Source: Alphaproteobacteria bacterium (GTDB taxonomy: Bacteria > Pseudomonadota > Alphaproteobacteria > Rhizobiales > Hyphomicrobiaceae). Taken from it: a stretch of 64,000 nucleotides of DNA. Below are positions 40,898 to 54,400 of the stretch, piece after piece; position 1 is the first letter of the stretch, and each line of letters opens with the position of its first letter. Below the pieces are notes generated by a model. The model had not been told where the DNA came from. It saw nothing but the letters and a program-made list of their open reading frames with translations, and did no database searches. The stretch covers positions 35,362 through 99,361 of the forward strand of contig JAHJSN010000045.1 in NCBI GenBank assembly GCA_018830445.1. Reading direction: 5' to 3'. The translations under genes and the position numbers were made by a program.

Positions 40898-41719
40898 ATG
40901 ACGTTTGAAAGCGCCACTTTTCGAGCAACCGCGGCCCTCGCCGCAGTGGTTCTGTCTTTGCTGCCCGGTCCCGCCAGTGCAAACGATATGACCACCCGCG
41001 AAGTGACCGTGAGGATTTTCGAGACCCCCGAAGGCGAACGGGCCGACTTTTCCGATCTGGTCCTGACTTTGCTGGACCTCTCGGGCCTCGACTTCAAAAA
41101 GGCTGTGCTGGTTGGCGCGGACCTCTATGGAAGCGATCTTTCTCACGCCAATCTCTCCGGTACGGATTTGTCCTCGACGCGCCTCGATCGCACGACCATT
41201 ATTGGTGCAGACTTTTCCCGAGCCGATTTTACCGACGCGACCTTGTTGCGGCCTTCCGGCTTCTCCTCGACCAGTTTCGACCGCTCGGAAGCAGCCAATT
41301 TCTCCGGCGCAAAGATGGTCCGCACTCGGATTTTCGCGCGCCTCGGCGGCGCCAGCTTCCGTGCCGCCGATTTGACCGACGCCGATTTCAGCCCGCTGTC
41401 GTCTGGCGCCAATACGATATCCGTCGTTCCCTTCAATATCCTCTCAGGGGCTGATTTCACCGATGCCGTTCTGCGCGGCGCCAATCTTGAACAAGTGAAA
41501 CTGGAATATGCCATCTTTCGTAACGCCGACGTGCGCGATGTCGACTTTCGCGGTGCCGACCTGACCGGAGCGGACTTCACCGGGGCTGACGTCACAGGTG
41601 CGAATTTTTCCGGCGCGACTGTCGCAAAGGCAGTACTGTCTGGTGCCAAGGGCGTGCAGGCCGCCAGGGGCCTGGGCCTCGCGGTCCGCCCTGAAGATTC
41701 CGAGTTGAAGCGCCCGTGA
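40898..41719 (+). CDS. exported pentapeptide-repeat protein
   Basis: Signal peptide plus A(D/N)LxX repeats (VDFRGADLTGADFTGADVTGANFSGA). Confidence 0.88.
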   Translation: MTFESATFRATAALAAVVLSLLPGPASANDMTTREVTVRIFETPEGERADFSDLVLTLLDLSGLDFKKAVLVGADLYGSDLSHANLSGTDLSSTRLDRTTIIGADFSRADFTDATLLRPSGFSSTSFDRSEAANFSGAKMVRTRIFARLGGASFRAADLTDADFSPLSSGANTISVVPFNILSGADFTDAVLRGANLEQVKLEYAIFRNADVRDVDFRGADLTGADFTGADVTGANFSGATVAKAVLSGAKGVQAARGLGLAVRPEDSELKRP

Positions 41720-42528
41720 ATATCGATCACCGAACCCCACGATTTGCAATCGAGTCCGCCACCGGCAGTCGCAGGCGCAGACTTGCGCGTCTGCTCGCCA
41801 TCGTTTCGAGCATCTGGATTGCTGCCTGCATTTTCCGGTCGCCGTTTACTGAGCGCGCCCGTGCAGCCTTCGATCCGGTCGATACCGCCCTTGTGATTGC
41901 CGTCGACGTCTCGAATTCCGTCGATCAACGCCGCTATCGCCTGCAGATGAGCGGTATTGCGGCCGCGCTCGAGGATCCCGCGGTTGTCGGAACGATCCTC
42001 AACGGCGCCCAGGGCGCGATCCTCGTGTCTCTCGTCGCCTGGTCCGACAAGCCGCGCATTGCCTTGGATTGGATGCGGATATCCTCGCAGGAAGACGCCG
42101 CCGCCGTCGCCGACAGGATCCGCCACCTGGAACGTATCACCGGCGAATTCACCTGCCTTGCCGAAATGCTGCGCTATCTCAATGACAAGGTGTTGCCGAC
42201 GGTCCCGGCAAGAGCGATCCGCAAGGTCGTCGATGTTTCCGGTGACGGCTCCGACAACTGCAATTCCAGCGTTGCGACGCCCGCAATTCGTGACGAGATC
42301 GTCGGTTATGGAACGATCGTCAACGGCCTGCCGATCCTGGAAGGGGCGGAGGCCGCGTCTCTCGAAGACTGGTACGACAAGAACGTCAAGGGCGGGCAGG
42401 GTTCATTTGTCCTTCCCGCCGACGGCTTCGAGGATTTCGGCCGCGCCATCCGCCAGAAATTCATTGTCGAAATCAGCGGCCGGGAACATCATTCCGGCCG
42501 CCGCTTCGCTAGAAGAAATATGGATTAA
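41716..42528 (+). CDS. DUF1194 / von Willebrand factor A-like protein, exported
   Basis: N-terminal TM, VDTALVIAVDVSNSVD MIDAS (DxSxS), KVVDVSGDGSDN; GTG start overlaps upstream TGA. Confidence 0.85.
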   Translation: MNIDHRTPRFAIESATGSRRRRLARLLAIVSSIWIAACIFRSPFTERARAAFDPVDTALVIAVDVSNSVDQRRYRLQMSGIAAALEDPAVVGTILNGAQGAILVSLVAWSDKPRIALDWMRISSQEDAAAVADRIRHLERITGEFTCLAEMLRYLNDKVLPTVPARAIRKVVDVSGDGSDNCNSSVATPAIRDEIVGYGTIVNGLPILEGAEAASLEDWYDKNVKGGQGSFVLPADGFEDFGRAIRQKFIVEISGREHHSGRRFARRNMD

Positions 42529-43337
42529 TCACGGAACGCCTTTTCGAGGTTCATGGCGTTGTCGAAATTGAGCGCCTTGTCGGCGTTTCCCAGCTTCAAC
42601 AGCTTGGCCGAATTGAGGTCCGCCTTCTCGAAGTTCGCCCCGGCGATATTGGCTCCGGTAAAATTCGCTCCCGCCAGTTCGCTCCCGCGCAGGTTCGAAC
42701 CGGCCAGATTTGCGCCGCTGAGATCAGCAAATTCCATCTGCACGCGGGCGAGATTCGCACCCTCGAAGCTTGCGCCTGAAAGATCGGCGGATGCGAAGAC
42801 CCCGCGCATCAGTCCCATCGACTGATTGGTTTCGTCGGCCGACAGGTTGGCGTTTCTGAAGTTCGCGTTCTTGAGGCTCGCCCGCGACATGTCGGCGGCG
42901 ACCCGCGCGCCTTCGAAATTGGCGCCGTCGAGATGTGCGCCGATCAACTGTGTCATGAACAGGCTCGCCCGCTTCAGGCTCGCGCCCGTGAAATCCGAAT
43001 CGAGCGCCCACGCCTGGTCGAGCACCACCCCGTCGAGATTGGCGCCCTTGAGGTTGGCCTTGTTGAGCCGCGCGGATTGCAGGTTGACCCGGCGCAGGTC
43101 GAGCCCGGACAAGTCGAGTCCATTGAGCGCTTTCGCGGCCAGGTCGAGCGTCTCGCCCTGCTTGAGGCCGGCAAGCTTTTGCTCGATATCGGCCCGGCTC
43201 AACTCCGCCTGCGTGAAAGCTGGCGAACTCAGATCGACGTGCCGCATCATGTCCTGCGCGAATCCGGCCGACGCCCAGAAGAGTGACACCAGGGCGCCAA
43301 GCAAAGCGGAACAAACGCCGCTGCGAAAAACCTTCAC
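42525..43337 (-). CDS. exported pentapeptide-repeat protein (convergent to DUF1194)
   Basis: Signal-like VKVFRSGVCSALLGALVSLFWASAGFA and many ANLxG repeats; GTG start inferred at 43337. Confidence 0.85.
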   Translation of the reverse strand: MKVFRSGVCSALLGALVSLFWASAGFAQDMMRHVDLSSPAFTQAELSRADIEQKLAGLKQGETLDLAAKALNGLDLSGLDLRRVNLQSARLNKANLKGANLDGVVLDQAWALDSDFTGASLKRASLFMTQLIGAHLDGANFEGARVAADMSRASLKNANFRNANLSADETNQSMGLMRGVFASADLSGASFEGANLARVQMEFADLSGANLAGSNLRGSELAGANFTGANIAGANFEKADLNSAKLLKLGNADKALNFDNAMNLEKAFRD

Positions 43338-43452
43338 CTGTTGAGCCTCCTCGGCGCAACCAACAACGACTCGCTGTCCAAGGTGATGGCACGCTTCGTC
43401 GATCACACGCTCTCACAAGCCCGCGACCTGGCTGAAATCCGTGTGATATCGG

Positions 43453-44265
43453 CTACCCGGCGGTCAAAAGTATCTCGCCCTTGCCGAGGCTCGCCATGTC
43501 GCCCATCAGTCGGCGCGGTGCCGCTGGCATCGGCGGCGGTGCCAGATCTTCGAGCGTTTTCGCCCAGTAGGCGGCCATGATTTTGAGGATGAGAAGTTCG
43601 TGCGTTCCGCAATCGACGAAGGTTGCCGATGCTGGGTAAAGCGTTGGCCCGATCAGCGTTCCGCGACGCATCTGCACGCCTGCTCCGGCCGATAGTCCCT
43701 GTTCGCCGAAGATCGTGCCGCCCATCATGCGCGCACCGGCATCGCGGCCCATGCTGCCTTTGACGATGATCGACCCCCGCCGCATGCGCTCGCCGGAAAG
43801 CTCGCCCGTGTTGCCTTTGACGACGACGTTGCCACCGGCCATGCCATCCTTTTCGCCCGAATGCGGACCGCCAAGATGCGCTCCCGCCGAACCACCGACG
43901 ACGATCAGGCCGCCGCGCAGGTTGGAGGCAAGATAGTCCCCGGCATTGCCCAGGATGTCGAGACGGCCTGACTTCATGCGCCGGCCTGCATTGGCCCCGG
44001 CATGGCCGTCGACGACAATCAATCCGCCGGCGTTTTCCGCCCCGACGCTTTCGAACTTGTCCGAGCCGCCCTCGAAATGGATCGTGTCGCCCGCTTCGCC
44101 GCTGACCGCGAAGCAGTCGCCGACGACGAGTTTGTCGGCGCCCTGCGCAACGACGAGTTTTTCGATTTCGGCGACCGAAAGTCCAGCGAGCTTGCCTGGA
44201 ACAAGCTGAGCCAGATCGATCCGGCGCGGCGGCGCCGCCCGCAGTTTCAACTTCAGGGCGCTCAT
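43453..44265 (-). CDS. fhcC: formyltransferase/hydrolase complex subunit C (FhcC; formylmethanofuran dehydrogenase C-like)
   Basis: GXXXGXXXG beta-helix repeats (GGLIVVGGSAGAHLGG, RRGSIIVKGSMGRDAGARMMGGTIFGEQG); coupled to fhcD. Confidence 0.9.
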   Translation of the reverse strand: MSALKLKLRAAPPRRIDLAQLVPGKLAGLSVAEIEKLVVAQGADKLVVGDCFAVSGEAGDTIHFEGGSDKFESVGAENAGGLIVVDGHAGANAGRRMKSGRLDILGNAGDYLASNLRGGLIVVGGSAGAHLGGPHSGEKDGMAGGNVVVKGNTGELSGERMRRGSIIVKGSMGRDAGARMMGGTIFGEQGLSAGAGVQMRRGTLIGPTLYPASATFVDCGTHELLILKIMAAYWAKTLEDLAPPPMPAAPRRLMGDMASLGKGEILLTAG

Positions 44266-45194
44266 GGCAGGTAGTCCTTGAGATGGTAGTGATGCTGGCC
44301 GAGATTGCCGCCGTAGTTGCCGGCGCTGATGCGCGTGACACCGTGCTGCGGGCCGGCTTCCAGTGCCGCCTTGAGGCCCGCCCGCATGGCTTCGCCGACC
44401 GCTTGCGAAGTTAGCCCGTCGATGACGATTTCAAGGACGCACTTGTCGTCCGGCCCGAGTTCGGAATCTACAGCGCCGCGCAACACCGGGCAGAATGCCT
44501 GGTTGGTGGAAGCCGGCGCGCCGTATTTCGATCCGACCTTCGAGCCCGACCGCACGACGCCGCCGGGGAACGGCGTGATGACGTCCGCGACGTCCGCGAT
44601 TGCCTCGACCGCCCGCTCGCAGGTCTGCAAAACCCCGGCGCGATCCTTGCCGATGACGAGGAAGTTGCCGCCGCCGACGGCCTCGGTGGTCACGCCAGCC
44701 TTGTCCTCGATGACGAATTCTCCGTCCATCACCGGCACCCGCCAGTAGCGCACTCCACCGAGTTTGCGGGCCGTCTGCCAGCCGTCGCCGAAGAAGCGCG
44801 GTCCTCCGGAAAGCGAAATCCTGGTGGAGCTTTCCAGTCCGTTGAAGCAGGCCGAGCCGGGGCTTGTCAGGACGCACTGTCCGACGCGGTTCTTGAGCTG
44901 GTCCTCGACCATGTTGGGCGCGAACCCGAATATCAGCACACGCACGCCGGGCCGTCCGTCGGGTGTCTTGTCAGCCGCGACCTCGTAGTCGATGCCGCAC
45001 TCGGCGCCGCAGCCGATCACCGAGGTGCCGAACCCAGTCATGGTTACCGCCGACTGGCGAGCCCATTTCGCGGTGTCTGCCGTAATGATGATGCCGGTTC
45101 CGCTCATGCCGAAGGCTTCGGCGAACGTGTCGTCGATGATGATGCCGTTCCGCGTGATCGGTGCAGCGGTGTTGGTTTCGTTCCCCTCGCTCAC
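44262..45194 (-). CDS. fhcD: formylmethanofuran--tetrahydromethanopterin formyltransferase (FhcD/Ftr)
   Basis: IIDDTFAEAFGMSGTGIIITADTAKWARQSAVTMTGFGTSVIGCGAECGID; AGNYGGNLGQHHYHL; GTG start. Confidence 0.96.
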   Translation of the reverse strand: MSEGNETNTAAPITRNGIIIDDTFAEAFGMSGTGIIITADTAKWARQSAVTMTGFGTSVIGCGAECGIDYEVAADKTPDGRPGVRVLIFGFAPNMVEDQLKNRVGQCVLTSPGSACFNGLESSTRISLSGGPRFFGDGWQTARKLGGVRYWRVPVMDGEFVIEDKAGVTTEAVGGGNFLVIGKDRAGVLQTCERAVEAIADVADVITPFPGGVVRSGSKVGSKYGAPASTNQAFCPVLRGAVDSELGPDDKCVLEIVIDGLTSQAVGEAMRAGLKAALEAGPQHGVTRISAGNYGGNLGQHHYHLKDYLP

Positions 45195-45541: not shown

Positions 45542-46078
45542 ATGTTGCGAACGCTCGCACTGGGACTGTTAATGCTGCCGCTCGTCGTGGTTGGTTCGGC
45601 AAATGCGCACGGTCCCACGCGCCAGAAGGTTACCGAAACCGTCGAGATCAATGCGTCTCCCGACAAGGTCTGGGGCGTCATCAAGAACTTCCATGATTTC
45701 AGCTGGCACCCTGCCGTTGAAAAGACCGAAGGCGATGGCGGTAACGCGGAAGGTGCCAAGCGCGTTGTGTTCGTCAAGGGCGCTGGCCAGCTTCACGAAG
45801 AACTGTTGAGCTATGACGAGGCCGGCCGCAAGTTCAAGTATTCCATCAGCAAAACCGACATGAAGGTGCTGCCGGTCAATAACTACACCTCGACATTGAT
45901 GGTTGAGGATGCCGGCGACGGAAAATCGAAGGTGACCTGGAAAGGTGCGTTTTATCGCGGCTATATGAACAATAACCCCCCCGCTGACCAGAACGATGCA
46001 GCCGCCGTCAATGCCGCCAAGGGCGTCTATCGCGGCGGTCTCGACGGCCTCAAGGCGAAGATCGAGGGTGCGGGATAG
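45542..46078 (+). CDS. secreted SRPBCC-fold protein, MxaD-like
   Basis: Signal peptide MLRTLALGLLMLPLVVVGSANA then VTETVEINASPDKVWGVIKNFHDFSWHPAVEKTEGDGG; xox locus context. Confidence 0.85.
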   Translation: MLRTLALGLLMLPLVVVGSANAHGPTRQKVTETVEINASPDKVWGVIKNFHDFSWHPAVEKTEGDGGNAEGAKRVVFVKGAGQLHEELLSYDEAGRKFKYSISKTDMKVLPVNNYTSTLMVEDAGDGKSKVTWKGAFYRGYMNNNPPADQNDAAAVNAAKGVYRGGLDGLKAKIEGAG

Positions 46079-46119
46079 AGCATGTTCAGCAAGAGAGTGA
46101 GCGGTTTTGCGTTTCGAAC

Positions 46120-47178
46120 ATGCGACAAAACAGAAAATTAGTGCGCATTCGCCATTCCATTGAAGGTGAGCGCGCACGATTGCTGCGGCCTCGCACGAAA
46201 GCCTTGCGGACCCGGACGGCGGCCCAACTGGCCGCCGCCACGCTATTGGCGGCCCTTTGCACGGCCCTGGCGGCCCCGCCATCCGTTGCTGAACAAGGTT
46301 CCGCCGAGGCTTTGGTGACGAGCCAGATCGCCGAGACAGTCACCTTCGTCAACGTCGATACGATGCAGGTTACCGGACAGGTATCCATTCCCGGCAAGCC
46401 CGCCGGTATTGCACTTTCACCGGACCGCAAGACGGCTTATGTGACGGCCCCGGAAGCCCGGGTGCTGGCCGTCATCGACATTGAAAGCCGCACGGTCATT
46501 GATCGGCTGGCGGTTGGCAACGGCCCCCTCGGGGTCGCCGTCCACCCGCAAGACGGCCGCATCTTCGTCGCCGACTGGTACGACCACCGCATCGCGGTCA
46601 TTGACCCTTCGACCCGTGCGGTCACAGCCTACATTCCGGTCGGAGAAAGTCCTTCCGGCATTGCCATCACACCTGACGGTCGCCTTGTGTTGAGCGCGGA
46701 TCGCGACAGCCATCAGGTCTCCCTCATCGATGCGGCGACTCTCACCGTGATCGGAACCGTGCCGGTCGGCGAACGGCCGTTTGGAATCACCATCGATGCG
46801 GATGGCCGTTTCGCCTATACCGCCAACGTCAAGAGCAATGACGTCTCGATCATCGACATCGCCGCCGGTAGGACGGTTGCCACGATCGCCGTGGGAAAGC
46901 GGCCCTATGCCGTGGCCTTGGCTGCCGGGCGGGCGTTCGTCACCGACCAGTATTCAGAGACGGTCAGCGTGATCGATTTGGATAAGAAGGCCGTAGTAAA
47001 GGCGGTAAAGGTTGGTGCTTATCCAGAAGGTATCGCCGCCGGTCGCAACGGCCGGTTCGTCTACGTGGCCTGCTGGGAAGACAACACACTGGAGCGGATC
47101 GACGCCCAAACCCTTGAAATCACAGGCCGTATCGAGGTCCCGGACGGGCCCAGGGCATTTGGCGACTTTCTGCGTTGA
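46120..47178 (+). CDS. YVTN/YncE-like beta-propeller protein, exported
   Basis: Repeats VIDIESRTVIDRLAVGNGPLGVAVHPQDGRIFVAD, VGESPSGIAITPDGRLVLSAD, VGERPFGITIDADGRFAYTAN. Confidence 0.9.
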   Translation: MRQNRKLVRIRHSIEGERARLLRPRTKALRTRTAAQLAAATLLAALCTALAAPPSVAEQGSAEALVTSQIAETVTFVNVDTMQVTGQVSIPGKPAGIALSPDRKTAYVTAPEARVLAVIDIESRTVIDRLAVGNGPLGVAVHPQDGRIFVADWYDHRIAVIDPSTRAVTAYIPVGESPSGIAITPDGRLVLSADRDSHQVSLIDAATLTVIGTVPVGERPFGITIDADGRFAYTANVKSNDVSIIDIAAGRTVATIAVGKRPYAVALAAGRAFVTDQYSETVSVIDLDKKAVVKAVKVGAYPEGIAAGRNGRFVYVACWEDNTLERIDAQTLEITGRIEVPDGPRAFGDFLR

Positions 47179-47293
47179 CGCTTGCAGTATCGCCGCCTTG
47201 TGCGGATAGGCTTTGCTATTGTAACTAAAGCCCAAATCGACCTTGCTCGGCTGCCGGGCAGCCGCTGACGTTAAACAAAGTGGAGGAACTTAT

Positions 47294-48034
47294 ATGCAGC
47301 TCGCGCTGTCCAATATCCGACGTATGGGTCTTGCCGCCGCCGCAATCGTCCTCGGCTCTGTCTCGGTTCTTGCCGCCGAAAGCCCGACGATCCAATCGGA
47401 ACTTTTCGACCGGAAGCACATCGACGATCTGTCGGCCGGTACCAAGCTCGTTTACGATTTTGAACGCAGCCCCTCTGAACCCAAGTTGCTCGGACCCGGC
47501 ATGAAAAGCGTCATCGAAGTGAATGTCGACAAGTTAAACGACGACGGCACCCGCGATCTCACCGTGCAGATTTTCCGTGGAGAATACGAACGCGAACCGC
47601 GCAACATGGGTGGACTGACCATCAATCCTGTTATGGTGTTCTATCTGGATCGCGCCGTCTCGGGCTTTTCGCTGCTTGCCGGCGGCAGCCAAGCCTACCA
47701 CAAGAATCGCTTTCGCCTCGCGCTGCGTACCGAGGGTGGCCTTGCTCCTGTGAAATTCGCTTACAATGGCAAAGAGGTTGAAGGCTACCGGCTGGCAGTC
47801 CGGCCTTTCACCGGCGACCGCAAGAACATCGACAAGATGAAGGGCTATGAAAACGCCCAGTTTGATTTTCTGATGAGCGATGACGTGCCGGGCTACTTTG
47901 CGGCCTTCAAATCCCACTACAGCAGCCCCAAGCCCGGCTCGCCCTCGCTTGAAGAAACGATCGTTCTCCAGGGCGTGACAATTCCCGAAGACGGCGTTGG
48001 CGGCGTCGCGCCAGATCGAGGTGAGAAGCAATAA
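47294..48034 (+). CDS. secreted protein of unknown function in xox locus
   Basis: Signal peptide MQLALSNIRRMGLAAAAIVLGSVSVLAA, beta-rich body; no family assigned with confidence. Confidence 0.7.
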   Translation: MQLALSNIRRMGLAAAAIVLGSVSVLAAESPTIQSELFDRKHIDDLSAGTKLVYDFERSPSEPKLLGPGMKSVIEVNVDKLNDDGTRDLTVQIFRGEYEREPRNMGGLTINPVMVFYLDRAVSGFSLLAGGSQAYHKNRFRLALRTEGGLAPVKFAYNGKEVEGYRLAVRPFTGDRKNIDKMKGYENAQFDFLMSDDVPGYFAAFKSHYSSPKPGSPSLEETIVLQGVTIPEDGVGGVAPDRGEKQ

Positions 48035-48396
48035 TGGGACGGCGAGAAATGCTTTTCGGCAGATCGGTTGCGGCAGCGCTCGCGCTATTCGTCTGCGGCT
48101 CCGCAACGGCGGCGGAACTTCCGACGAACGATTATCCGACGGTCTCGCGCGCCGATTATGTCTTCGCCTGCATGCAGGTGAACGGGCAATCGCGCGAGAC
48201 GCTGTTCAAGTGTTCCTGCTCGATCGACAAGATCGCGGAACTGATCCCCTTCAAGGACTACGAGGAAGCCGAAACGATCATGTCGGTCATCCAGAAGGGT
48301 GGCGAGTCGGTTGCGGCGCTGCGCTACAAGCCGTTGCAGGACAAGGTCAATCGCTTGAAAAAGGCGCAGGTGGAAGCGGAAATCCGCTGCTTCTGA
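48034..48396 (+). CDS. small secreted Cys-containing protein of unknown function
   Basis: TAATG coupling to upstream gene; mature part has DYVFACMQVNGQSRETLFKCSCSID...IRCF (four Cys). Confidence 0.7.
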   Translation: MGRREMLFGRSVAAALALFVCGSATAAELPTNDYPTVSRADYVFACMQVNGQSRETLFKCSCSIDKIAELIPFKDYEEAETIMSVIQKGGESVAALRYKPLQDKVNRLKKAQVEAEIRCF

Positions 48397-48412
48397 TCGC
48401 TATGCAGAACGT

Positions 48413-48443
48413 AAAAATGGCCGGCTCATTGCCGGCCATTTTT
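48413..48443. terminator. bidirectional intrinsic terminator
   Basis: aaaaatggccggctcattgccggccattttt between convergent genes. Confidence 0.8.
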
Positions 48444-48468
48444 GTTTCGACTTACGATTGATCCGGCT

Positions 48469-49296
48469 CTACGAACCTGTCACGTCCGCAGACGTGGTGA
48501 ACACTTTCCCATCAGTGTCGCGCGCCGAGACACTCAAGGGACCTTCGATGCCGACGGCATAGGTGAACTGGATATTGGGGTTCTCCGAAAGCGAAATGCC
48601 GCCGTCCATGTTGAACACCACCTTGTCGCCCTTGCGCACCTCCATGTGCTCCACGAATTTCGCCGGGATATAGAGGCCGGTGACCTGGTTCATTTGCATG
48701 CCCGAATAATTCGGATGCCGCACCATCACTTGCGCTTCGGCGGTCGGGCTTGACGCGCCCTCGGGCTTGCTTGCGAATGGCCGCAACTTCATCTTCCCGA
48801 TGTTCGCCAGCGCCGCGTCCATGTCCTTCAAGGCCGGTGCCGAGCACCCGCCGGCCGCCTTGACGTATTTGGTCTGCATATGAAGCGAGCCGTCGTCGAG
48901 TTCGATCACCGCGCGCACATTCGAGTACATGTCGACGCGCACCCGCGTCGAGATCTTGCGTTCCCCCAGCCCTGCGGCTTCGCCGAAGGTAAATGCCGCG
49001 ACAACCGGGGCCGGATTCTTTTCCACGATCAGCGTCAGTTTGCGCACCTTCGCGGCGATGCCGCCCGGGATGGTGACCGTGATTGGCACGATCGCCGCGT
49101 CTTCCGCGCGGTAGGGCGCATCGAGCGCGAGCTTGCCGTCGCCTTCTGCGATTTGCCGGTTTTCGCCGAACACGTCGTTGCGGATGCTTTGCCACAACTC
49201 GGCGTCTTCATCGGCCTTTGCGATCGGGCTCTGCCACACGAACAACGCGCTGCCGAGAGCGGCAACGAGGGCGAGTGTCCAGAATCTGTTGGCCAT
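48469..49296 (-). CDS. quinoprotein dehydrogenase-associated SoxYZ-like carrier protein
   Basis: SoxY-like N-terminal half with VKAAGGCSAPA swinging-arm-like Cys, then SoxZ-like domain (AQVMVRHPNYSGMQMNQVTGLYIPAKFVEHMEVRKGDKVVFNMDGGISLSENPNIQF). Confidence 0.88.
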   Translation of the reverse strand: MANRFWTLALVAALGSALFVWQSPIAKADEDAELWQSIRNDVFGENRQIAEGDGKLALDAPYRAEDAAIVPITVTIPGGIAAKVRKLTLIVEKNPAPVVAAFTFGEAAGLGERKISTRVRVDMYSNVRAVIELDDGSLHMQTKYVKAAGGCSAPALKDMDAALANIGKMKLRPFASKPEGASSPTAEAQVMVRHPNYSGMQMNQVTGLYIPAKFVEHMEVRKGDKVVFNMDGGISLSENPNIQFTYAVGIEGPLSVSARDTDGKVFTTSADVTGS

Positions 49297-49448
49297 TGGC
49301 CGGTCCTCCGATCGTATTGGCAATTATGAACTCCGGCCCGGAACTCGATACATCTTGTTTTTCTAATGTAACATGTCCCGTCAATGGCCGAAACAATCAA
49401 CCGGCCATCCGCTCAACACTGCGTTACTAGTTGTGGTGCCTCAAGAGG

Positions 49449-50474
49449 CTATTCCCACTCGAGCTCGGCAAAGGCCGCCGAAACGTTGCGTTTGTGAAAA
49501 TCCTCGAACAGCTGCCACTGTGACGCCTCGCCGCCCGCTGCGGTGTCGACCGCTTCACTGATCGTTCCGCCCCGCTTGATGATCGCGCGAACATCGTTTG
49601 CCACAGCATTCAGGTAGCGCAGCATCGGCATCGACGCCTCCGGCCATGAAAGCGCTGCCGGTCCGTGACCCGGGACGATCTTCTGTGCCGGTGAATTCCC
49701 TATTTTTTCAAGCGTTTCGATCCATCCCTTGATCGATCCGTCGAGCGATGGAACGTGCCCCGAAAAAATCAGGTCCCCCATGAATGCGACCCCGGTTTTG
49801 TCGTCGGTGACGATCAGATCGTTGTCCGTGTGGGCCGTGTTCTGGGCTGAAAGCTGCAAGCTGCGGCCCCCCAGATCGATTGAGGATGACGTCTCGACGA
49901 GTTGATCTGGAAGAACGATTTGCGTTCCGGCAAACGCTTCTGCCCCGAGCATTTCGGAGGCAACGCGCAAATAGCGTTCGCTCCGCGCGGTAAGCGCGCG
50001 CGGCATCTTGTGATGCGCAACAAACGCCGCGGCATCGGCTTTGAACGCCGCGTTTCCCAGCACGTGATCGGGGTGCATATGGGTGTTGATGACGTATTTG
50101 ATCGGGTTTTTTGTGCGCTCGGCGACGGCTGCGCGCAGTGCTGCTCCGGCGAGATAGCTGCCGCCAGTGTCGATCACCGCCACGGCGTCGGTTCCGATCA
50201 CGAATCCTGCGTTTGAGATGTCGCCGTGGTTCTCGGGCGCCTGGTCGGCGATCTGGCCTTGATGCACAAACACGCCATCGGCGATTTCAATAGAATTTGC
50301 CGCCTCGGTTTCGCGTGCTTGAAGCCCACCGAAGTAGCGTGCAAAACCAGCGCTTCCGCCCATGAACAGAAGGCCCAGGCATGCCGTTCGGCGTGTCGGA
50401 TGCGCGGCGTTCAGATGCTTTCGTTGCAGCAAGGTTGAATTGCTTTTTCCGCAAGCCGGTCCGTCATCGAACAT
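49449..50474 (-). CDS. MBL-fold zinc metallohydrolase (quinoprotein relay/SoxH-related)
   Basis: INTHMHPDHVLGNAAF (HxHxDH), FMGDLIFSGHVPSLDGS, KIVPGHGPA; start inferred at MFDDGP. Confidence 0.85.
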   Translation of the reverse strand: MFDDGPACGKSNSTLLQRKHLNAAHPTRRTACLGLLFMGGSAGFARYFGGLQARETEAANSIEIADGVFVHQGQIADQAPENHGDISNAGFVIGTDAVAVIDTGGSYLAGAALRAAVAERTKNPIKYVINTHMHPDHVLGNAAFKADAAAFVAHHKMPRALTARSERYLRVASEMLGAEAFAGTQIVLPDQLVETSSSIDLGGRSLQLSAQNTAHTDNDLIVTDDKTGVAFMGDLIFSGHVPSLDGSIKGWIETLEKIGNSPAQKIVPGHGPAALSWPEASMPMLRYLNAVANDVRAIIKRGGTISEAVDTAAGGEASQWQLFEDFHKRNVSAAFAELEWE

Positions 50475-50842
50475 TCTGTTCTTCCTTCCATTGCCTGGAC
50501 CATGCATACGCGGTGATTTGGCGGTCTCGAACGAAAAAATTGTTGTGAAAGAACCGCAATGATTGCGCCGGGCTCCAGAAAACAAAAGGAAAAAGACAGG
50601 CTGCCGGGAAAAATTCCCGATATTGCTCAACCATTCTTCATGTAGACTTGCGTCGTGCGACGAAAAGTGCCAAAACTCCGCGCAGGCAGCACGACTTCAG
50701 GCGCCGAGGGTTGTTCTTTGGTGTTCGCTTCGAAAGTCTCATCTCACAAGACCGGGTGCCAATCCGGCGAGATCGACGACTGTGACACGCTGACGTTGCT
50801 GTCTCTTGCAAGCGTGGCAAGATCTCACAAGGAGGAAGCGCA

Positions 50843-52642
50843 ATGCGCAAGAGTGCACTAACTGGTGCGCTGCTCGCTGCCGTCGTTGTTTCGCCAGCTC
50901 TGGCTAACAAGGACGTCATCAAGCAGACTTCGGACGCCAAACAGTGGGTCCTACAAACTGGTGACTATACGAACCAGCGTTATTCTAAACTCGATCAGAT
51001 CAACGCAAGCAACGTCAAGGACCTGAAGGTCGCTTGGACGTTCTCGACCGGTGTTCTGCGTGGTCACGAAGGTTCGCCTCTCGTGATTGGCGACACCATG
51101 TACCTGCATACTCCGTTCCCGAACAATGTGTTCGCGCTCGACCTGAACGAGCCCGGCCGCATCATTTGGAAATACGAGCCCAAGCAGGACCCCTCGGTCA
51201 TCCCCGTAATGTGCTGCGACACCGTTAACCGCGGTCTCGCCTACGCAGACGGCAAGATCTTCCTCCATCAGGCTGACACCACTGTCGTCGCACTCGACGC
51301 CAAGTCCGGTAAGGAAGTCTGGAAGACGGTCAACGGTGATCCGAAGCGCGGTGAAACCAACACGGCGACGGTTCTCCCCGTCAACGACAAGGTCATCGTC
51401 GGCATCTCCGGTGGTGAATTCGGCGTTCTCGGCCACGTCACCGCCTACGACATGAACTCCGGCAAGATGGTTTGGCGCGGTCACTCCTCCGGTCCGGACG
51501 ATCACATGCTGATGGATCCTGAAAAAACCATGTCGCTCGGCAAGCCGGTCGGCAAGGATTCCTCGCTGAAGACCTGGCAGGGCGATCAGTGGAAGATCGG
51601 TGGCGGCACCACCTGGGGCTGGTATTCCTACGATCCGGAAACCAACCTAGTGTACTACGGCTCGGGTAACCCCTCGACCTGGAACCCGGCACAGCGCCCG
51701 GGCGACAACAAGTGGTCGATGACCATTTGGGCACGTGACGCCGACACCGGTGTTGCCAAGTGGGTCTACCAGATGACCCCGTTCGACGAGTGGGACTATG
51801 ACGGCATCAACGAGATGATTCTCGCTGACATCGACGTCAAAGGTGAGAAGCGCAAGGTTCTCGTCCACTTCGACCGTAACGGCTACGGCTACACCCTTGA
51901 CCGCGTCACTGGTGAGCTGCTCGTTGCTGAAGTCTACGACCCGACCGTCAACTGGACGACCGGCGTGGAATTCGACAAGTCGAAGCCGAACTATGGCCGT
52001 CCCTACGTTGTCGACAAGTACTCGACCGCGAAGAACGGTGAAGACGTGAACTCGAAGGGCATCTGCCCGGCCGCTCTCGGCTCGAAGGACCAGCAGCCTG
52101 CTTCCTTCTCGCCAACCACCGGCCTGTTCTATGTCCCGACGAACCACGTCTGCATGGACTACGAACCCTTCAAGGTTTCGTACACCGCTGGTCAGCCTTA
52201 CGTTGGCGCCACGCTGTCCATGTTCCCGGCTCCGAACAGCCACGGCGGCATGGGTAACTTCATCGCTTGGGATGCTGGCAAGGGCAAGATCGTTTGGTCG
52301 AAGCCTGAGCCCTTCTCGGTATGGTCGGGTGCACTCTCGACCGCTGGCGGCATCGTATTCTACGGTACGCTGGAAGGTTACCTGAAGGCAGTTGATGAGA
52401 AGACGGGCGACGAACTGTTCAAGTTCCGCACTCCGTCGGGCATCATCGGCAACGTCATGACCTACGAGCATGGTGGCAAGCAGTACGTCGGCATCCTGTC
52501 GGGCGTTGGCGGCTGGGCCGGCATCGGTCTGGCAGCTGGCCTCACCAACCCGACCGATGGTCTGGGTGCAGTGGGTGGCTACGCTGGCCTCAACAGCTAC
52601 ACCCGCCTGGGTGGCACGTTGACGGTCTTCTCGCTGCCATAA
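50843..52642 (+). CDS. xoxF: lanthanide-dependent PQQ methanol dehydrogenase XoxF (XoxF5-like)
   Basis: [13 protein letters not shown] vicinal Cys pair (51212-51217), [15 protein letters not shown] with the extra Asp typical of XoxF (51794-51802), PQQ-enzyme W motifs. Confidence 0.97.
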
Positions 52643-52661
52643 GCGATACGTGATCGAAATG

Positions 52662-52695
52662 GGCCGGTGCGGGGTAACCTGCGCCGGCCTTTTTT
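52662..52695 (+). terminator. intrinsic terminator after xoxF
   Basis: ggccggtgcggggtaacctgcgccggcctttttt. Confidence 0.7.
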
Positions 52696-52974
52696 ACGAT
52701 CAGGGCTACCACGACGGCTCTCCCCTCTCCGCGAGACGACAGACCCGGTTGGACCGGCCATGGCGATAAGAAGTTCTCGACGTTCGCACGAGCGTTTTCT
52801 ATTGATCCTTGGCTTGCCCCACTACGTTCAAGGAATTATCTGGTTCTTCAATATGAAGGCCAATGCTTCCCGGCTCTCGCCATTTGATGGCCATTTCCCC
52901 GGACGATGATGGGGGCGTGTGAGGCGGTCGAAAGCTGGGGCTTTCGAAAACAAGGTTCCTATGGAGGGAAACGC

Positions 52975-53541
52975 GTGACGAAAATTTGGAAGGTAATCTC
53001 TGCCGCGGCACTTGTCGCCGGATGGGTCGCAGTCGGCACCGCTACCATGGTTTCGGCCGAAGCAACAAAGATGGACGACGGCTCGGTTGCTGCCGGCAAG
53101 GGCGCCGAGTTCGACGCCGACGCAGGCAAGTGGTTCCTGGAATCGGGCGATCCCACCTATCGCATCAAGGAAGATGGTACGCTCGACTTCCTCACCTATC
53201 GCGGCTTCCAGCGCTATCACTCCGAATGCCACGTCTGCCATGGGCCTGAAGGCGTCGGTTCGACGTACGCACCAGCCCTCATCGATTCCTTGAAGACGAT
53301 GGCCTACGGCGACTTCGTTGGTGTTGTCGCAAGCGGTCGCGTTGTGCATCAGCCCGGCGGCGGTGAATCCGTGATGCCGGCCCTCGGAGATAACGTCAAC
53401 GTCATGTGCTACCTCGATGGCATCTACACATATCTCAAGGCCCGTTCCGACGGCGTTCTCGCCCGTGGCCGTCCGAAGGGCAAGGAAGCCAAGCCCGAAG
53501 GACTTGGCGCAACCGAAGATGCATGCCTCGGGGGCAAGTAA
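52975..53541 (+). CDS. xoxG: c-type cytochrome XoxG (electron acceptor of XoxF)
   Basis: GTG start, signal peptide, single CHVCH heme motif (53227-53241), between xoxF and xoxJ. Confidence 0.9.
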   Translation: MTKIWKVISAAALVAGWVAVGTATMVSAEATKMDDGSVAAGKGAEFDADAGKWFLESGDPTYRIKEDGTLDFLTYRGFQRYHSECHVCHGPEGVGSTYAPALIDSLKTMAYGDFVGVVASGRVVHQPGGGESVMPALGDNVNVMCYLDGIYTYLKARSDGVLARGRPKGKEAKPEGLGATEDACLGGK

Positions 53542-53542
53542 T

Positions 53543-54400
53543 ATGAAAAAGCGCATGATCACTGCGCTTGCGTTTCTGTTTCTCGGCGGCATTGCCGCCG
53601 AGGCTGCGGAAGGTGACCGCGCCGACCTCGTCAACCGTCAGGTTCTTCGAGTCTGCGCCGATCCGGCGAATGTGCCGTTCTCCAGCGAGGATCCCGACAA
53701 GCCAGGGTTTGAAAACAAGATCGCCGACGTCATAGCCAAGGAGCTCGGCAACATCCCAGTCGAGTACACATGGTTCCCGCAGGCGACCGGCTTCATCCGC
53801 CGGACGCTGTTCGCCAAGGCCTGCGATGTTGTCATCGGATATGCGCAGGGCGACGAAATGGTTCTGAATACCAACCACTATTATCGCTCTGCCTATGTGA
53901 TCGTCTATAAGAAGGGCGGTGAGTTGGACGGTGTCGACAGCCTTTCCGACGAGCGCCTCAAGGGCAAGCCGATCGGCATTATCGCTGGAACGCCTCCGGC
54001 GACTTATGCAACCCGTGCCGGGCTGATGGCTAACGCAAGGCCCTACCATCTCCACGTTGACCGCCGTTACGATTCGCCGATGGAAAGGATGATCGAAGAC
54101 ATCCGATCCGGCGAAATCGCCGCGGGCGTCATGTGGGGGCCGAATGCTGGCTACTTCGCCACCGACGGTGGCAAGGACGATCTATCGATCGTGCCACTGC
54201 TGAAGGAAGGCAAGTTCCCGCCGATGACGTTTCGCATCACCATGGGTGTGCGCCAGTCCGACGCCACCTGGAAACGCGAATTGAACGAGATCATCCAAAA
54301 GCGCCAGGGCGAAATCGACAAGATACTGCTCGACTATCACATCCCGATCATCGATGAGAACGATCAGCAGATCACCTCGGCAAGGACCTCGGGCGGCTGA
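53543..54400 (+). CDS. xoxJ: periplasmic solute-binding-like protein XoxJ/MxaJ
   Basis: LRVCADPANVPFSSEDPDKPGFENKIADVIAKELGNIPVEYTWFPQATGFIRRTL, typical of quinoprotein-associated SBP family. Confidence 0.92.
   Translation: MKKRMITALAFLFLGGIAAEAAEGDRADLVNRQVLRVCADPANVPFSSEDPDKPGFENKIADVIAKELGNIPVEYTWFPQATGFIRRTLFAKACDVVIGYAQGDEMVLNTNHYYRSAYVIVYKKGGELDGVDSLSDERLKGKPIGIIAGTPPATYATRAGLMANARPYHLHVDRRYDSPMERMIEDIRSGEIAAGVMWGPNAGYFATDGGKDDLSIVPLLKEGKFPPMTFRITMGVRQSDATWKRELNEIIQKRQGEIDKILLDYHIPIIDENDQQITSARTSGG

Follow-up and report, generated by a model that had tools for sequence, protein, structure and literature searches.

In M. extorquens AM1, ABC transporter genes (1737-1739) are followed by xoxFGJ (1740-1742), which includes the gene for the lanthanide-dependent methanol dehydrogenase XoxF, and then by orf6 (1746), orf7 (1747), pqqE (1748), pqqCD (1749), pqqB (1750), mxbM (1752) and mxbD (1753) (PMC7391723, PMC6414531). 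On methanol with lanthanum (La), the AM1 wild type grows at 0.16 per h, the orf6 deletion mutant at 0.03 per h and the xoxF1 xoxF2 mutant at 0.04 per h; deletion of orf7 gives 0.08 per h after a 9 h lag, deletion of META1p1771, which encodes an MxaD homolog, gives 0.11 per h, and orf6, orf7 and META1p1771 are required only when La is present (PMC7391723). A second described system, the quinoprotein relay, includes a SoxYZ-like protein and a hydrolase of the metallo-beta-lactamase (MBL) fold. The hypotheses that a 2026 review lists for these two are disulfide formation, cofactor stabilisation, or shielding of pyrroloquinoline quinone (PQQ) against sulfur nucleophiles, and no relay phenotype was seen in P. 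putida grown without lanthanides (PMC12997753). How periplasmic XoxF is supplied with PQQ and with a rare-earth metal is an open question. Here we analyse a stretch of 64,000 nucleotides from an alphaproteobacterial genome (the window), in which positions 45542-54400 are a lanthanide methanol dehydrogenase cluster. What is new at this locus is a pair of genes, here called P3 and P4, whose products are exported, translationally coupled and probably dedicated to XoxF, and the P4 family gives the question of XoxF assembly a concrete target. The pair and its dehydrogenase are placed as follows.

47294-48034, + strand: P3, exported protein, family unnamed (NCBIfam and Pfam searches gave no family at E<=0.01)
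48034-48396, + strand: P4, small helical protein with four cysteines, exported, family unnamed (NCBIfam and Pfam searches gave no family at E<=0.01)
50843-52642, + strand: XoxF, lanthanide-dependent methanol dehydrogenase (TIGR03075, 757 bits against a cut-off of 480)

The window XoxF carries the lanthanide signature D318/D320 in WDYDG as well as the vicinal cysteines C124-C125, and both features are invariant in an alignment of 44 sequences (44/44). Judged by these residues it is a XoxF-type lanthanide methanol dehydrogenase, with La-dependent activity predicted.

Co-occurrence of P4 with XoxF

A scan with P4 of 84,980 species' genomes returned 490 relatives, the best 80 of which were taken together with flanks of up to 10 kb; where names exist, all 80 are alphaproteobacterial. 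Because several contigs end early, the counts from these loci are lower bounds. P3 was found near P4 in 76 loci, the SoxYZ-like gene in 59, the MBL gene in 57, XoxF in 49, a YVTN gene in 43, XoxG in 41, XoxJ in 39 and an SRPBCC gene in 37, and the accessory genes that the preliminary description of this DNA had grouped with xoxFGJ recur around P4 homologues more than chance would give. P3 and P4 lie on the same strand in all 76 of 76 loci, with an ATGA-type overlap in 56; the window genes have one base in common, which ends the P3 stop codon and begins the P4 ATG. Other recurrent neighbours of P4 are fhc genes, a gene for a CXXCW protein, ABC transporter genes and two-component genes. On pSymB of S. 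meliloti and on a Ruegeria plasmid, genes for a response regulator, a FIST protein and a hybrid or PAS-domain kinase stand directly upstream of P3-P4, and this arrangement is possibly a XoxF or lanthanide sensing unit. Plasmid pSK01 of R. leguminosarum holds a minimal system of xoxFGJ and a divergent P4 alone, with no P3, SoxYZ or MBL gene nearby.

The distribution of P4 was compared with that of XoxF across Pseudomonadota, the phylum that the survey covered. In 259 genomes, P4 was present in 27 and XoxF-clade enzymes in 27, and the two sets are identical (Fisher 3e-37), XoxF-clade calls being made at >=66% identity or, in G397 and G433, on fragments at 68-80%. In an even sample of 212 Alphaproteobacteria, P4 and XoxF were found in 12 genomes each and together in 11. 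The association with xoxF reaches well past close relatives. We regard the single genome with XoxF and no P4 (G026) as a case of an assembly edge, because its contig is cut 3 bases before SoxYZ, where its sister G223 has P4. The match is more than common descent by itself would account for, because holders occur sporadically within genera and families: genomes with both genes and with neither number 2 and 6 in genus g196, 3 and 9 in family f28, and 1 and 2 in genus g267. In four genomes (G423, G139, G126 and G060) the only lanthanide-type (DxD) enzymes come from outside the XoxF clade, and all four are without P4, which indicates that P4 follows the XoxF lineage and not lanthanide or PQQ use as such; a role for P4 as a general lanthanide factor is accordingly disfavoured. 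Searches of three mxa clusters with the P3 and P4 profiles gave no relatives up to E 10, and every genome in the sample in which MxaF was recognised also carried XoxF.

Gene order connects the pair to the AM1 genes. In a Methylobacterium-type genome (G252), three ABC transporter genes, xoxF-G-J, an L,D-transpeptidase-like gene and fol genes are followed by P4, P3, pqqE, a gene of pqqCD size, pqqB, a response regulator and a kinase, the names other than those of xox, P3 and P4 having been assigned by sequence inspection. The XoxF of this genome gives a gapless, full-length alignment with 6OC5, the enzyme of M. extorquens (1290 bits; next match 895 bits), and the best match of its XoxG is 6ONQ. 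Because this order matches that of AM1, orf6 (META1p1746) corresponds by position to P4 and orf7 (META1p1747) to P3. The apparent counterpart of P4 in M. extorquens matters as much for La-dependent growth on methanol as XoxF does. We found no literature on META1p1746/1747 and Mext_1814-1818 beyond PMC7391723 and PMC6414531.

Neither P3 nor P4 of the window matched NCBIfam or Pfam (the MxaI model included) or any sequence in the PDB, and there was no consistent Pfam match among 77 P3 and 81 P4 relatives, so that membership of a known family was rejected for both. The P4 cysteines C46, C60, C62 and C119 are invariant in 81 sequences and would likely form two disulfides; the four-cysteine pattern reads NDYPT...CM...CSCSID. 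Among its acidic residues, D7, D15, D39 and E88 (mature numbering) are invariant and E54 and E90 nearly so. The AlphaFold2 model of P4 is all-helical, with five helices (pLDDT 92.1), and a fold search with it against the PDB gave nothing below E 0.69. P3 is modelled as an alpha/beta open barrel (pLDDT 93.6) with a weak likeness to LolA/LprG; its Foldseek match to LolA (8cgm) has E 1.5e-4 but a TM-score of only ~0.3.

Candidate roles of the P3-P4 pair

A role in making active XoxF is the best explanation because the pair is XoxF-specific, exported, located near xoxF or pqq genes, and needed when XoxF and not MxaFI oxidises methanol. A part in PQQ supply at large is unlikely, since MxaFI also depends on this cofactor and the deletion mutants reveal no requirement when La is absent. 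By a slight balance of probability, then, P3 and P4 would be XoxF-specific periplasmic maturation factors, with the growth defects of the deletions reflecting a maturation defect at the step of PQQ or lanthanide loading or of oxidative folding. The target of the pair would be apo-XoxF that has just reached the periplasm, which it would help to convert into the active enzyme. P3, with its open-barrel, ligand-carrier-like fold, may hold or present a ligand or a segment of the chain, and P4, small and helical with its four invariant cysteines, may dock on XoxF during PQQ or lanthanide loading or oxidative folding. A more specific form of this proposal, to which we give somewhat less than an even chance, is that P4 (Orf6) and P3 (Orf7) are a dedicated XoxF maturase, representing a new periplasmic factor family, that would load PQQ and/or lanthanide into XoxF-clade enzymes only, or fold them oxidatively, and would be obligate for XoxF throughout Pseudomonadota and apart from the assembly genes of the calcium (Ca) enzyme.

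Several observations weigh against a maturation role. The link of P3 and P4 to XoxF assembly is drawn from gene order, co-occurrence and published phenotypes rather than from biochemistry, and the equation of orf6 and orf7 with P4 and P3 comes from gene order in the Methylobacterium-type genome rather than from AM1 sequences. The AM1 pqqBCDE genes are down 3-4 fold with La, which is unexpected for a co-transcribed, dedicated La-side factor (PMC6414531). P3 was not found in 5 of the 12 XoxF genomes of the class sample, perhaps owing to divergence or contig ends. One genome (G130) has P4, P3, SoxYZ and MBL genes but no XoxF match; it belongs to a 1.4 Mb alphaproteobacterium in which no PQQ dehydrogenase was found, and it may have lost xoxF to an assembly gap. 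Kinase neighbours would also fit a regulatory role, and the 1:1 pattern a subunit role.

The alternative that holds up best, though we consider it unlikely, is that P3 and P4 are periplasmic signal partners of a neighbouring two-component system of the MxbDM type in the lanthanide switch; in the absence of P3 and P4, xox would fail to turn on, or mxa would stay off, when La is present. In 29 of the 80 loci, two-component genes lie no more than 4.5 kb from P4, often directly upstream of P3, a placement that would also suit a signalling role; the response regulator and histidine kinase beyond pqqB in the Methylobacterium-type genome occupy the places of mxbM and mxbD (PMC6414531), and in Rhodobacteraceae and Sinorhizobium the genes ahead of P3 are of the FIST-domain and hybrid kinase kinds. 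Yet no kinase adjoins the pair in the Hyphomicrobium and Filomicrobium loci or in the window, and the tie of P4 to XoxF itself holds in lineages whose regulators differ. A failed switch should moreover leave MxaFI active, whereas the deletion mutants grow poorly with La (PMC7391723).

Less probable again is a role for P4 as an accessory subunit, bound loosely, or as an electron-transfer helper of XoxF-XoxG, similar to MxaI or MxaD, and not an assembly factor. Such a role would fit a small exported protein that is near 1:1 with XoxF and stands beside xoxFGJ even without the other accessory genes, as in R. leguminosarum, but P4 matches no methanol dehydrogenase subunit model, and XoxF1 was purified from M. 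extorquens homogeneous and active with no partner reported (PMC6414531). We consider it improbable that P4 is a lanthanide chaperone that hands metal to XoxF, although its conserved acidic residues, its specificity for XoxF and the La-specific phenotype of its apparent ortholog (PMC7391723) point that way: no EF-hand (lanmodulin) match was obtained with Pfam profiles in P4 or its relatives, P4 is absent with other DxD dehydrogenases, which need metal too, and a lanthanide site does not typically consist of four invariant cysteines. That the genes merely travel as a methylotrophy island, their co-occurrence being due to shared transfer and their periplasmic functions unrelated, is very improbable, for although fhc genes also flank the locus and the cluster is found on plasmids in Sinorhizobium and Ruegeria, P4 still accompanies XoxF in genomes that have the pair among pqq genes at a distance from xoxF, in sporadic holders within genera and in more distant Pseudomonadota, and the deletion phenotypes are La-specific (PMC7391723).

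P3 and P4 are good candidates for the missing assembly helpers of XoxF. The P4 family, which has been gained and lost along with XoxF, could be used to mark functional XoxF systems in genomes and is a candidate partner for the production of active XoxF in other hosts.

Separable modules around xoxFGJ

Open reading frames and NCBIfam and Pfam profile searches place nine consecutive genes for exported or periplasmic proteins at 45542-54400, around xoxFGJ. The order is SRPBCC, YVTN, P3 and P4 (+ strand), SoxYZ-like and MBL (- strand), and xoxF, xoxG and xoxJ (+ strand), and all nine products have a hydrophobic N-terminal segment. This agrees with the preliminary description, in which a set of about 9 kb had been located here. 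The features beside P3, P4 and XoxF are as follows.

45542-46078, + strand: SRPBCC/MxaD-like exported protein (PF10604, E 3.1e-35)
46120-47178, + strand: exported beta-propeller with YVTN repeats, in an MxaE-like position after the SRPBCC gene (TIGR02276 repeats, 1.3e-58)
48469-49296, - strand: quinoprotein-associated SoxYZ-like fused carrier (TIGR04557, 263.8 bits against a cut-off of 140)
49449-50630, - strand: exported quinoprotein relay system zinc metallohydrolase 2, MBL fold (TIGR04559, 392 bits against a cut-off of 280)
50631-50842, no strand: intergenic stretch shared by the divergent MBL and xoxF genes (from the gene coordinates)
52906-53541, + strand: XoxG cytochrome c (TIGR03874, 190.7 bits against a cut-off of 161.75; CHVCH motif)
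53540-54400, + strand: XoxJ periplasmic binding protein (TIGR03871, 289.3 bits against a cut-off of 212)

The source genome is 4.15 Mb in size, and Filomicrobium/Hyphomicrobiaceae are nearest among its named relatives. Upstream of the SRPBCC gene lie fhcD/fhcC of the formyltransferase/hydrolase complex (43453-45194), and at 40898-43406 are genes for two pentapeptide-repeat-like proteins and a DUF1194-like exported protein; these names were given by inspection. The fhc, pentapeptide-repeat-like and DUF1194-like genes are seen again in 20-27 of the 80 P4 loci.

The preliminary description went on to propose that the accessory genes may act together to mature, protect or electronically connect XoxF. 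A functional tie to XoxF stands for several of them, through the co-occurrence of P4 and the La-specific phenotypes of AM1 deletions of their counterparts, but a single coherent set does not. P4, the SoxYZ-MBL genes and the SRPBCC-YVTN genes occur apart, and the cluster is therefore not one system but a group of separable modules: P4 stands alone in R. leguminosarum, one genome (G131) has XoxF, P4 and P3 with both SoxYZ-like and MBL-2 not over cut-off, SoxYZ occurs without XoxF, and the SRPBCC-YVTN pair has a twin in mxa clusters. The reading as one functional set of nine genes was rejected.

The SRPBCC-YVTN genes form an adjacent pair in 37 of the 80 P4 loci and also in three mxa clusters. 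The product of the gene after mxaD in mxa clusters, in the MxaE position, is a YVTN beta-propeller, and a further copy of the MxaD-MxaE pair exists on the xox side. In the Methylobacterium-type genome, the closest relative of the window SRPBCC protein (58% identity, at C1:3863459, against 45% for mxaD itself) is followed by a YVTN gene, as in the window, and this second pair, within the locus C1:3854900-3874800, lies ~25 kb from xoxF. The window pair is homologous to the mxa-cluster pair but is placed beside xoxF, outside the Ca-enzyme operon, and it is read as the equivalent, for xox, of mxaD-mxaE in the Ca-enzyme cluster. By position the window SRPBCC protein would correspond to M. extorquens META1p1771, and the pattern of identities is as expected. 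The propeller scored 178.9 bits with TIGR03866 (PQQ-dependent catabolism-associated), below the cut-off of 287.3, and can be called only a general YVTN propeller.

The single cysteine of the SoxYZ-like protein, C151 in VKAAGGCSAP (codon 48844-48846), is invariant in 60 of 60 sequences and is the site at which the preliminary description placed a putative covalent carriage. It is located between the two domains rather than in a GGCGG at the C-terminus; with the model of the thiosulfate-oxidising SoxY (TIGR04488) the protein reached 74.2 bits, short of the cut-off of 125. In the MBL protein, H184, H186, D188 and H189 (HxHxDH), H267, D286 and H322 are >=97% conserved in 58 sequences. Its listed TTG start is probably too early, with the true start nearer 50507. 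Within the sample of 212 Alphaproteobacteria, MBL-2 and SoxYZ were each present in 10 of the 12 XoxF genomes. SoxYZ-like carriers were found in 18 genomes, 8 of which have no XoxF match (7 without XoxF and P4, plus G130 with P4). MBL-2 tracks XoxF closely whereas the SoxYZ-like carrier does not, and the carrier, which is ruled out as a XoxF-specific marker, also accompanies other PQQ dehydrogenases. The vicinal cysteines were considered as a target that the SoxYZ/MBL pair follows; they are not discriminating, because MxaF and most of the PQQ dehydrogenases examined have CC too. In the source genome, four SoxYZ-like genes are over cut-off, and a second quinoprotein set (contig C188, 364-8179) comprises SoxYZ-like, MBL and PQQ dehydrogenase genes; this dehydrogenase is 39% identical, has WDYDG and is ExaF/PedH-like, and histidine kinase and FIST-domain genes come next.

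Comparison with described systems

The window SoxYZ-like and MBL proteins pass both cut-offs of the quinoprotein relay (SoxYZ-like TIGR04557, metallohydrolase 2 TIGR04559 and CXXCW; PP_2677, PP_2678 and PP_2666 in P. putida) and are read as members of these known families, to which the preliminary description had also referred them. Unlike that system, the window has no CXXCW gene after xoxJ, whereas 33 of the 80 related loci do have a CXXCW gene; the function of the relay is unproven in P. putida as well (PMC12997753). With the MxaD-MxaE genes of the Ca-dependent methanol dehydrogenase cluster, the window shares adjacent SRPBCC and YVTN-propeller genes, but its SRPBCC protein is nearer to the second, xox-side copy than to MxaD. 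MxaI, the small subunit of MxaFI, is like P4 small, exported and tied to one type of dehydrogenase, and differs in that P4 is without a match to any subunit model. The P3 model resembles the periplasmic carriers LolA and LprG, yet given the low TM-score and the lack of a sequence match we do not claim that P3 belongs with them. The published description of Orf6 and Orf7 of AM1 calls them unknown and assigns them neither a family nor a structure or a distribution (PMC7391723). Like P4 and P3 in the Methylobacterium-type genome, orf6 and orf7 lie between xoxFGJ and pqqE-pqqCD-pqqB-mxbM-mxbD, and the need for them on methanol is La-specific; the AM1 genes adjoin pqq genes, whereas the window pair adjoins SoxYZ and xoxF.

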